A program made the translations under genes and the position numbers. Under the pieces are notes generated by a model that was given only the letters and a program-made list of their open reading frames with translations, made no database searches and was not told the origin of the DNA. From positions 1 through 39,675 of the forward strand of contig CALMZN010000020.1 of NCBI GenBank assembly GCA_937870675.1: DNA of 39,675 nt, in the 5' to 3' direction. The DNA is from an uncultured bacterium. Its GTDB lineage: Bacteria; Patescibacteriota; Patescibacteriia; UBA1558; GWA2-36-10. Shown piece after piece: positions 264-23,186 of this stretch; position 1 is the first letter of the stretch, and each line of letters opens with the position of its first letter.

Positions 264-977
264 TTATCTAAACTTTGTTTGTTTCTCTCGCCACTCTTTG
301 ATCAATTTATGATTACCGGACAGCAAAACTTTCGGCACTTTCAAATTCATAAATTTATCTGGCCTTGTATATTGTGGATATTCAACATTAAATTTTTTTG
401 CCTTCTTATCATAAACTCCAAAAGATTCGTCAGCCACTGATTCCTCTTTGCCCACCACACCTTTGACTAGACGAGAGACACTATCTACCACGCAGGCCAC
501 AGCCAGCTCGCCACCAGTCAGCACAAAATTGCCTAAAGAAATTTTTTCATCTATAAATTTATCAATGCGGGCATCAATGGCTTCATAGTGCCCAGCAATC
601 AAAATCAGACGATCATATTTAGCTAATTGCTTTACTTTATTTTGATCCAAAGTCGCGCCGCGGGGCGTCAATAAAATCACCCGCGTTTTCTTATTCTTTA
701 CTTTACCGCCCAAAGGGCGACCGCCCTTTGGGCGGTTTTTTAATTTTGGATAAATTTTTTTCAAAGTTTTATAAACCGGTTCTATTTTTATAACCATACC
801 AGGGCCCCCGCCATAAGGAGTATCATCAACTGTTTTTCTTTTATTAGTGGCAGCTTGACGGATGTCATGCGTGCTGATATCAATCAATTTTTTATCGCGC
901 GCTCTTTTCAAAATTGAAGAGTCAAAATAGCTGTCTAAAATATTTGGGAAAATTGTCAGGATGTCAAATTTTTTCAT
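264..977 (-). CDS. trmD: tRNA (guanine-N1)-methyltransferase TrmD
   Basis: MKKFDILTIFPNILDSYFDSSILKRA..., DDTPYGGGPGMV, LIAGHYEAIDARI, SLGNFVLTGGELA motifs of TrmD. Confidence 0.96.
   Translation of the reverse strand: MKKFDILTIFPNILDSYFDSSILKRARDKKLIDISTHDIRQAATNKRKTVDDTPYGGGPGMVIKIEPVYKTLKKIYPKLKNRPKGGRPLGGKVKNKKTRVILLTPRGATLDQNKVKQLAKYDRLILIAGHYEAIDARIDKFIDEKISLGNFVLTGGELAVACVVDSVSRLVKGVVGKEESVADESFGVYDKKAKKFNVEYPQYTRPDKFMNLKVPKVLLSGNHKLIKEWREKQTKFR
705..736. repeat. Palindromic repeat element copy 1, inside trmD
   Basis: CCGCCCAAAGGGCG-AC-CGCCCTTTGGGCGG; perfect 14-15 bp inverted arms; same 30-mer at 17909-17938. Confidence 0.9.
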
Positions 978-15452: not shown

Positions 15453-17957
15453 TTATTTTTTCTTTTTTAGCTTAGTGGCCAACACATAAAAAATACTTAT
15501 TACCAAAAATCCCAGCAAGATAAACTTTAACATCTTTTTGCTTTGCGAATATCCTTGATTGGCCTCCACGGCACTAGTGCTATTAGTGCTTGTTGAAATT
15601 TTTTCGCCCAAAACTTTTTGCTCCATTTGTAAATCATTTTTATCAAAAACATCCAAGCGCACTACTTTTTCATCAAATTGTAATAAGCCACTGGCAATGA
15701 CTTCAGTACCTTTATCTAATTTTAAATCCTTGGTGTCAAACTTTAAACTCAAGCGCAAATTATATTCTTGGTCAACATCATCGGCTAAATAAATATTTTT
15801 GCCATTTTTTTTGACCACTACTCCGCGCGCCATCACTAATTGCCCATTATATTCTTCATTAAGATCAGCACTATCTATAATCTCTGGTTTAATTATTTCC
15901 TGTTCGCTGTCTAAAATACTTATTTCCTGATCGCTGACAATTTTTACTCTGGGCCAAGGATCAACTCTGGTGATTTTGCCTGACAAATAAATTGTGTCGC
16001 CTCTTTTGTATTTGGCAAAATCTAAAGCGCCGTAGGCCTCAAGCAAACGATTTTCATAATCTAATAAATATAGTATTTTATTATTCTGACCCCAAACCGT
16101 GGCTGTAATATTTCTATTCTCTCCTTTTTTATATTCCAAGTTTTCACCAGCCGCCTGCAGAGTATTTACAATGTTTGCTTGCCCAGGACTCGGACTTTCG
16201 CTGACAAACCATTCGTTGTTGGCTAGGTCCCAAGCATAGGACTGGCTTTCGGGAATTTTTTCATATTTTACTTCTTGCCAGACCTCATTCAATGGCGTGA
16301 GCAGGCGCACGCTGTCTGTAGTGTTGTTCAAAGTAATTTGACTAGTATTTCTATCAAGCACCAAAAAACTTCCAGCCGAAATAATTGTACTAGTAGCAAA
16401 AACATACGGCTTACTGCCACCCTCTTCATCGTCTAATTGCCAGCCAAGCAAATCAATGTTTTTGACGCTAGCGTTGTATAGTTCTACCCACTCAGCATCA
16501 TCACTGCCCACTGGATTTGGTAAAACTTCAGTGATCAACAAATCCTCTGTTCTAAAATCTATGGGCTTAACATCGACCAACTTCAAGTCAATCACTTTAT
16601 TTTCCACCACAATATTTTTGGTGACTTCGTTGCTTAGCCCAGCCAAATCAGTGACTTTTAATTTAACCAAATAATTACCGGGCTTTTCGTAAACGTGATT
16701 TTCTTTGGCTTCGTCGCCATTTTGATTATCACCAAAATCCCAAAAATATTTTAACTCCCCTTCTTCGGGATCAAGCGACTCGCTACTTGAAAAAATTATT
16801 TTTGTATTAGCAAAAAATTTATCGCCTTCAATTTTTAGCATTGCTTGCGGCGCTTGATTCTCTGGCAAGACATTGGCTTGGCCGGGTGTGGGACTTGGTG
16901 TCCAAACCAATGACCCATTTATCAAGGCAAAAGTTTTGCCCTCTGGCGCCGAAGCATCATAAACTGCGCTGTCCAACAAATTATTGTCGGGCGAATACAC
17001 CTTCACGCTATCGCCACCAGTATTATTCAAAGATATTTTTGTCTGATTTTTATAAAGCACCAAATACGAGTTTCCCGCCAAAAGCAAACCCTGCCCAATA
17101 GTATATTGTCCGGCCGAATTGTCCTGCACCTTGAAGCCAGACAGATCAACTGTGTTTTGTCCTTGATTAAATAATTCTATCCATTCAGCGTCGTCACTGC
17201 CCACTGGATTGGGCAACAACTCGGATATTTTTATTTGCGCCCAATAATTAGTCGACGCTCTGGTGCCACTACTAACCGGCGCTTCGGAAGCTGGCGTCTC
17301 CGGCTCCTCGTCAGCCGGTGGATCGTCATCGCCACCGCCATCATCTGGTGGCAATGGTGGCCAGTCCGCTTCTGGGCTTTTCACTGCGCCCGGAGTGCCA
17401 CCCAACACAGAACTCTCCTGCCAGTTACTCACTACGCTTTCTTGCGTTAAATTTATTTTTTCCAATGTTTTGCCATTACCACTTGCGCCCCAAGTAGAAT
17501 CATAAACAGCGCTAATACCTTGAGTTTGGCCACCATCAAAACTCAAAGCAATGGTGCTACTAGAATTACCCAAACTCATGACTGTATCAAAAATTGTAAA
17601 GGCAAACCCCGGATGTTCAGTCAAAAAATTCTGCGCGTCAGAGGCAATGATAAAATATTCACTCACGGCAATGGTGCTGGTGCCATTGACCAAATTCAAA
17701 ATATGATTTGAACCATCAAAAAAACGCCAAGTATCAGCGCCTGCCCCAGTCAAAACTTCTATGTTTTCTGAACTGCCATTGTAGACCTCAATCCACTCAC
17801 GACCACTATCTGCCCCATCCAAATCGTACATGATTTCCGAAATCACCAAATCGCTGTTAGCCGCCTGAATGGCCTGCGGGCAAATCAAAACAAATATTAA
17901 AATAGTGACCGCCCAAAGGGCGACCGCCCTTTGGGCGGAAATCGCTTTTCTTTTCAT
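15453..17957 (-). CDS. Lamin-tail-domain (LTD) surface protein with PKD domain and C-terminal TM anchor
   Basis: Three LTD-like segments (LVISEIMYDLDGADSGREWIEVYN; ISELLPNPVGSDDAEWIELFN; ITEVLPNPVGSDDAEWVELYN), PKD YFWDFGDNQNG, C-terminal TM + KKKK. Confidence 0.85.
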   Translation of the reverse strand: MKRKAISAQRAVALWAVTILIFVLICPQAIQAANSDLVISEIMYDLDGADSGREWIEVYNGSSENIEVLTGAGADTWRFFDGSNHILNLVNGTSTIAVSEYFIIASDAQNFLTEHPGFAFTIFDTVMSLGNSSSTIALSFDGGQTQGISAVYDSTWGASGNGKTLEKINLTQESVVSNWQESSVLGGTPGAVKSPEADWPPLPPDDGGGDDDPPADEEPETPASEAPVSSGTRASTNYWAQIKISELLPNPVGSDDAEWIELFNQGQNTVDLSGFKVQDNSAGQYTIGQGLLLAGNSYLVLYKNQTKISLNNTGGDSVKVYSPDNNLLDSAVYDASAPEGKTFALINGSLVWTPSPTPGQANVLPENQAPQAMLKIEGDKFFANTKIIFSSSESLDPEEGELKYFWDFGDNQNGDEAKENHVYEKPGNYLVKLKVTDLAGLSNEVTKNIVVENKVIDLKLVDVKPIDFRTEDLLITEVLPNPVGSDDAEWVELYNASVKNIDLLGWQLDDEEGGSKPYVFATSTIISAGSFLVLDRNTSQITLNNTTDSVRLLTPLNEVWQEVKYEKIPESQSYAWDLANNEWFVSESPSPGQANIVNTLQAAGENLEYKKGENRNITATVWGQNNKILYLLDYENRLLEAYGALDFAKYKRGDTIYLSGKITRVDPWPRVKIVSDQEISILDSEQEIIKPEIIDSADLNEEYNGQLVMARGVVVKKNGKNIYLADDVDQEYNLRLSLKFDTKDLKLDKGTEVIASGLLQFDEKVVRLDVFDKNDLQMEQKVLGEKISTSTNSTSAVEANQGYSQSKKMLKFILLGFLVISIFYVLATKLKKKK
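17908..17939. repeat. Palindromic repeat element copy 2, inside the LTD-protein signal peptide
   Basis: Same 30-mer CCGCCCAAAGGGCGACCGCCCTTTGGGCGG as in trmD. Confidence 0.92.
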
Positions 17958-22918: not shown

Positions 22919-22962
22919 ATACCCTCTAGGGGTATTATAGCAAAGCAGTAAAAAGACGTCAA
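22919..22962 (-). promoter_or_regulatory. Promoter and overlapping palindromic operator of the CsoR-like/trx operon
   Basis: Minus strand TTGACG-N17-TATAAT; ATACCC(T)CTA(G)GGGTAT palindrome at 22919-22935 overlaps the -10/TSS. Confidence 0.82.
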
Positions 22963-23046
22963 GTGTGGTGATAAAAAACCACCGACCCCTAACCCCTCCC
23001 GACCTCCCCTTGACAGGGGAGGACTATTTAAGCCCCTTTGTTGTCT

Positions 23047-23074
23047 CGCCCAAAGGGCAACCACCCTCTGGGTG
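23047..23074. repeat. Degenerate copy 3 of the palindromic element, intergenic
   Basis: CGCCCAAAGGGCaACCaCCCTcTGGGtG, 4 differences in 28 from copies 1 and 2. Confidence 0.65.
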
Positions 23075-23133
23075 AAAAGGGAGTTTGGGGGATTTAGAAA
23101 AAAGAGGAATAAGCCCCCTTGTCAAAGGGGGTT

Positions 23134-23153
23134 CCTGCCTGCCGGCAGGCAGG
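23134..23153. repeat. Perfect 20-bp palindrome in repeat-rich intergenic region
   Basis: CCTGCCTGCCGGCAGGCAGG. Confidence 0.8.
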
Positions 23154-23186
23154 TGGGGGATTAAAAAAACCTCACCCCTCAGCTAT

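Follow-up and report, generated by a model that had tools for sequence, protein, structure and literature searches.

Palindromic repeats within essential proteins have so far been best known from Rickettsia and from some REP-rich bacteria. The RPEs of Rickettsia form families of about 150 bp that encode a conserved peptide (reviewed in PMC10969869), and GTAG/CGTC REPs are palindromes of 20-40 bp that are often found between co-directional genes, some lying in-frame in repair, tRNA synthetase and tRNA-modification genes (PMC3733652). REPINs are inverted doublets that form hairpins with compensatory changes; in P. fluorescens these doublets are spaced 71-110 bp apart, tied to RAYTs and present in high copy (PMC3116915). 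In the mitochondria of Nematomorpha, coding palindromes occur as inverted repeats in translated genes, with both arms encoding conserved protein regions and lengths of up to 284 bp (PMC6649704). Here we describe a smaller, structurally conserved form from the streamlined genomes of Patescibacteria, which is carried by about half of 219 sampled relatives and allows clean comparisons with empty sites. No paper on such elements in Patescibacteria was found in the open-access literature searched, most subscription journals lying outside that search. We consider it probable that two inverted 13-nt mini-hairpins and the 2-nt spacer between them make up a dispersed, non-autonomous repeat of REPIN-like type. 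The repeat would reach new sites most likely in the form of folded single-stranded DNA, through the action of a trans-acting enzyme.

The window, i.e., the whole stretch of 39,675 nt that was analysed, belongs to a draft genome of 829 kb in 84 contigs (G000; estimated completeness, 100). The 30-mer CCGCCCAAAGGGCGACCGCCCTTTGGGCGG lies at positions 706-735, where an earlier note on this DNA had placed it at 705-736, and had 0 matches in 100 shuffles. Its host is trmD (264-977, minus strand; NF000648, E=2.3e-75; TIGR00088, E=5.8e-72; PF01746), which encodes tRNA (guanosine(37)-N1)-methyltransferase, and the in-frame peptide RPKGGRPLGG forms TrmD residues 82-91, as that note had read it; between the peptide and TRVILLTPRG lie six residues (KVKNKK). 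The second identical 30-mer reported in the note was found exactly at 17909-17938, inside the ORF of a secreted or anchored protein that carries three LTD domains and one PKD domain (15453-17957, minus strand; PF00932, PF18911). There, the same DNA is translated in a different frame within the signal peptide, as SAQRAVALWAV, and all six frames of the 30-mer are free of stop codons. A third, diverged doublet (CGCCCAAAGGGCA-AC-CACCCTCTGGGTG; 23047-23074) is intergenic and sits in a larger composite GC-rich repeat (22960-23170), which also holds TGCCTGCCGGCAGGCA (23136-23151). The genome has at least two such intergenic composites of the form CCCCTTGACAGGGGAGG ... doublet ... TGCCTGCCGGCAGGCA, the one in the window and one in L012 near 1501, and there is a similar composite at G000:C2:5014. 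Between 26900 and 39675, the GC content climbs from about 0.40 to 0.62, and the genes there (oligopeptide ABC transporter, LysM transglycosylase, GloB-like hydrolase, methyltransferase and DnaQ-like exonuclease) have a proteobacterial look. From about 26.9 kb onwards, the contig is probably a chimera or contamination, and the last 12.8 kb of the window, probably foreign to the genome, were left out of the analysis.

The doublet core (707-734) consists of mini-hairpin 1 (CGCCC-AAA-GGGCG; 707-719), a 2-nt spacer, AC (720-721), and mini-hairpin 2 (CGCCC-TTT-GGGCG; 722-734), the reverse complement of the first; the hairpins were assigned from covariation and the spacer from a scan for partner hairpins by spacer length. 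The note's view of each half as a mini-hairpin held, its 14-bp arms being 13-nt hairpins (5-bp stem, 3-nt loop) on either side of the spacer. In the partner scan, the adjoining 13 nt were read without constraint from each exact hairpin in the loci scanned, many of which had originally been retrieved with the doublet pattern, and of the 148 positions, 47 had a perfect partner when the spacer was 2 nt long, compared with 0-1 for spacers of 0, 1 and 3-10 nt. Six partner hairpins had other stems (e.g., CAGCC/GGCTG, AACCC/GGGTT, CCGCC/GGCGG and CCCGC/GCGGG). Across 37 distinct aligned doublets, which were partly collected by pattern with ≤2 mismatches and are biased in that respect, covariation was 0.248 for the mini-hairpins versus 0.101 in shuffled alignments (0/500), and 0.111 for the long palindrome versus 0.109 (200/500). 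Compensation within the mini-hairpins amounted to 27 cells, G-U cells included, against 7.3 in the shuffles. The partner scan and a class-wide stem test are free of this pattern bias at the positions used. In the latter, the stem positions that the probe does not constrain showed Watson-Crick pairing of 0.94 and 0.91 among the matches listed (65 distinct doublets; shuffle maxima, 0.78 and 0.81), which is an independent check on compensation within the hairpins. The conserved unit is therefore the mini-hairpin pair, with the general form CNNCC-NNN-GGNNG-RY-CNNCC-NNN-GGNNG, and the long palindrome is a by-product, because the two hairpins are roughly reverse complements of each other. The long cruciform is ruled out as the conserved unit by the pair counts, though the perfect window copy could fold in this way and its predicted RNA minimum is one long hairpin instead of two short ones. 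In some doublets (L138, L160, L171 and L172), a further GC-rich palindrome enlarges one of the hairpin loops, which gives the impression that such loops serve as targets of insertion.

This anatomy is closer to a minimal REPIN than to a Rickettsia RPE. As in REPINs, the dispersed and predominant unit is an inverted pair of short hairpin-forming repeats with compensatory stem changes and an intergenic bias, but the element is only 28 nt long, has a 2-nt spacer and is mostly present in tens of copies or fewer. With the GTAG/CGTC REPs (PMC3733652), it shares the size of a dispersed 20-40 bp palindromic stem-loop repeat, in-frame intragenic copies and co-directional sites; it differs in having two mini-hairpins instead of one stem-loop, and the doublets inspected had no GTAG/CGTC end tetranucleotide. 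The resemblance to RPEs proposed in the note is one of behaviour, in that a reduced genome has palindromic repeats inserted in-frame in genes that are functional and unrelated (trmD, leuS, the LTD protein gene, dnaJ, ileS and others), whereas the present element comes from Patescibacteria, measures 28-30 nt instead of about 150 bp and uses two frames to give two peptides in the window in place of a conserved one. The inverted repeats inside translated genes of Nematomorpha are likewise comparable, but here the repeat is a short added segment in a loop. In a comparison with MITEs, for which the parent-transposon search covered Y1_Tnp only, direct AAAGT motifs were seen beside many copies (AAAGTN tandem repeats; L006, L009, L010, L137, L139 and L141) but may be pre-existing tandem repeats, and no clear target-site duplication was seen; at the LeuRS copy, part of the AAAGTN flank arrived with the insert.

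We searched related genomes with the generic probe CNNCCNNNGGNNGRYCNNCCNNNGGNNG and obtained 677 forward matches in 115 of 219 genomes, compared with 3 for the reversed control. The related genomes were mostly of the same class, with 0-64 copies each, and copy number was patchy even within one genus (7, 1, 0 and 0 in g7). Named matches bearing the element included Patescibacteria and Komeilibacteria, in agreement with the CPR-like genome suspected in the note. An assembly artefact is unlikely, given that the element recurs at different places in independent genomes. Strict-pattern matches in high-GC genomes, e.g., Bradyrhizobium, from a scan of GTDB contigs had GC-rich flanks and were treated as chance or unrelated. 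Uptake sequences are usually present in hundreds of copies, and 0-64 copies are too few for such a reading. Two consensus forms had no exact match in IMG/VR, exact patterns being narrow and thus a weak test of a viral vector.

A rival view is that the element is a genuine REP/REPIN family that a RAYT (TnpA-REP, a Y1/HUH transposase) mobilises. REPs are known to show inverted hairpin doublets, doublet predominance, intergenic bias and in-frame copies within repair genes and genes related to tRNA. Among the 219 genomes, carriage of at least one copy was weakly associated with Y1_Tnp (odds ratio 2.3, p=0.004, kinship ignored). However, the association was not significant at ≥3 or ≥5 copies, and 14 of the 45 genomes with ≥5 copies had no Y1, kinship again being ignored. 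No match to PF01797 was detected in G000, a draft from which a contig could be missing, or in the element-rich G008, G013, G017, G020 and G021, and the ends of the inspected copies, with flanks read by eye, carried no consistent GTAG or CGTC tag. A RAYT as the resident mover was thus rejected, with no PF01797 in G000 and an association this weak, and we regard mobilisation by a RAYT as unlikely.

We further compared filled and empty sites in relatives, all of them draft genomes. The TrmD insert was present in G000 and in its congener G001 (68% complete), there as the variant RPKGDRPLGG, and absent from 17 of the 19 same-family TrmDs aligned; the segment is thus not conserved across the clade, and the alignment bears out the note's view that a variable loop of TrmD has received the palindrome in-frame. 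The copies of the two congeners differ in flank and in the orientation of the centre, which is compatible with one insertion or with two. The same loop carries 15 extra nt (CCCGCTACGCGGGAC) in G005, corresponding to a single mini-hairpin with this geometry and 2 further nt, and an unrelated insert in G004. In an AlphaFold2 model built from an alignment of 28 TrmDs (mean pLDDT, 74.9), residues 83-92 scored below 50, so that the insert, at residues 82-91, fits a predicted disordered loop on an otherwise retained fold, a fit that does not in itself prove activity. In LeuRS, an insert of 14 residues (42 nt; KKSCSQGDRPVGGK) was found in G000 only and was absent in the congener and the other relatives aligned, while G012 had a 4-residue insert at the same site. 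The copy in the LTD signal peptide was intact in G000 and could still be recognised in G001 despite its decay (TAHKVVSLWAI), and other relatives had none. Conversely, a DnaJ copy was present in G001 and absent in G000, and another DnaJ copy occurred in the G/F region in G013. Further in-frame internal copies were detected in a bifunctional PGI/PMI (G001), a UvrD/PcrA-type helicase (G015), a GT4 glycosyltransferase (G009) and ileS of G017 and of G036, the last belonging to another family. In relatives, doublets were also observed upstream of intact tRNA genes (Pro, Ala, Val and Asn; L149, L038, L181, L182, L183, L184 and L187), at a distance of about 48-107 nt. The 5' end of the same tRNA is present there as a partial copy, whose D-loop holds the doublet; at L183, the unit and its leader are repeated in tandem.

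Within G000, the exact 30-mer was found twice, and four places matched it with ≤3 mismatches. With free loops (CGCCCNNNGGGCGACCGCCCNNNGGGCG; ≤3 mismatches), 9 places were recovered, and single hairpins (CRCCCNNNGGGYG) numbered 25, versus 1 for the reversed control. Site classes were derived from ORFs and family matches in stretches surrounding the search matches, and genes were named by NCBIfam. On this basis, most copies lie between genes and three are gene-internal (trmD, the LTD protein gene and leuS), so the element is not specifically protein-coding, although the note had likened it to protein-coding palindromic elements. One copy forms the C-terminal tail of rsmH, and others lie upstream of rplK, beside dnaB, after ssb and after uvrA; one hairpin (C80:3567) falls in a stretch without a recognised gene. 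Several intergenic copies are situated between co-directional neighbours (rpsK-rpsD, parA-parB, and clpP and a DHH phosphatase).

Such positions between co-directional genes or upstream of rplK, together with the G-U cells among the compensated stem pairs, would be expected of an RNA-level functional element under selection, such as an operon-internal mRNA hairpin serving as a stabiliser or regulator. We consider this very unlikely, as the sites are not conserved (the LeuRS and DnaJ copies differ between the two congeners), copies also occur inside proteins, many related genomes have none, and no Rfam family was matched; a known RNA family was likewise rejected, the window search having found tRNAs only.

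Replication template switching can create and repair hairpin stems and would yield compensation within hairpins (PMC8794818), and the hairpins might therefore have been made and kept in place by this process instead of by insertion of copies. This leaves unexplained why unlinked loci share a sequence, why the spacer is exactly 2 nt and why there are clean extra segments relative to empty orthologues, and as an account of the origin of the copies it is highly improbable. Template switching may well maintain copies after insertion, keeping their stems perfect, and the compensation within hairpins could stem from it instead of from selection. Selection for an encoded peptide, as in a Rickettsia-RPE-like element, would suit the in-frame copies in unrelated proteins and the loop predicted to be disordered, but can be practically dismissed, given that the reading frame differs between the two copies of the window, the copy in the signal peptide is decayed in the congener and non-coding copies are the majority.

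We thus favour a mobile, non-autonomous repeat because of its dispersal, precise architecture and species-specific sites. We infer its movement as single-stranded DNA from the hairpin anatomy, the likeness to REPINs, the palindromes nested in loops and the doublets in D-loops of partial tRNA copies. One hairpin and its spacer would account for 15 nt, and a doublet would accordingly add about 30 nt. Owing to this length and the lack of stop codons in all six frames of the window 30-mer, a copy that enters a surface loop, a signal peptide or the end of a protein would be translatable and tolerable, with a presumably near-neutral effect on the protein. Survivors may then remain where the added peptide does little harm, as in the TrmD loop, the LTD signal peptide and the LeuRS loop, and subsequently decay. 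These ultra-small bacteria thus translate a piece of apparently parasitic DNA in essential proteins such as TrmD, and the element offers a datable source of small protein insertions (10-15 residues). It also poses the question of what moves a 28-nt element in a genome without a detectable Y1 transposase.

More tentatively, and with the balance still somewhat against it, the element may represent a class-wide Patescibacteria superfamily in which minimal pairs of hairpins are mobile and spread with no resident Y1 transposase. Its members would insert as folded single strands at loops, namely exposed protein loops, the D-loops of tRNA genes (by partial duplication that leaves an intact tRNA beside the insert) and the loops of other hairpins. 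Near a MerR-like gene, we also observed a single hairpin with a longer stem at apparently the same place in both congeners (L140 and L145), and its stem changes are compensated (AACCAC CGCCC ATA GGGCG ATGGTT and AACCAT CACCC TTT GGGTG GTGGTT).
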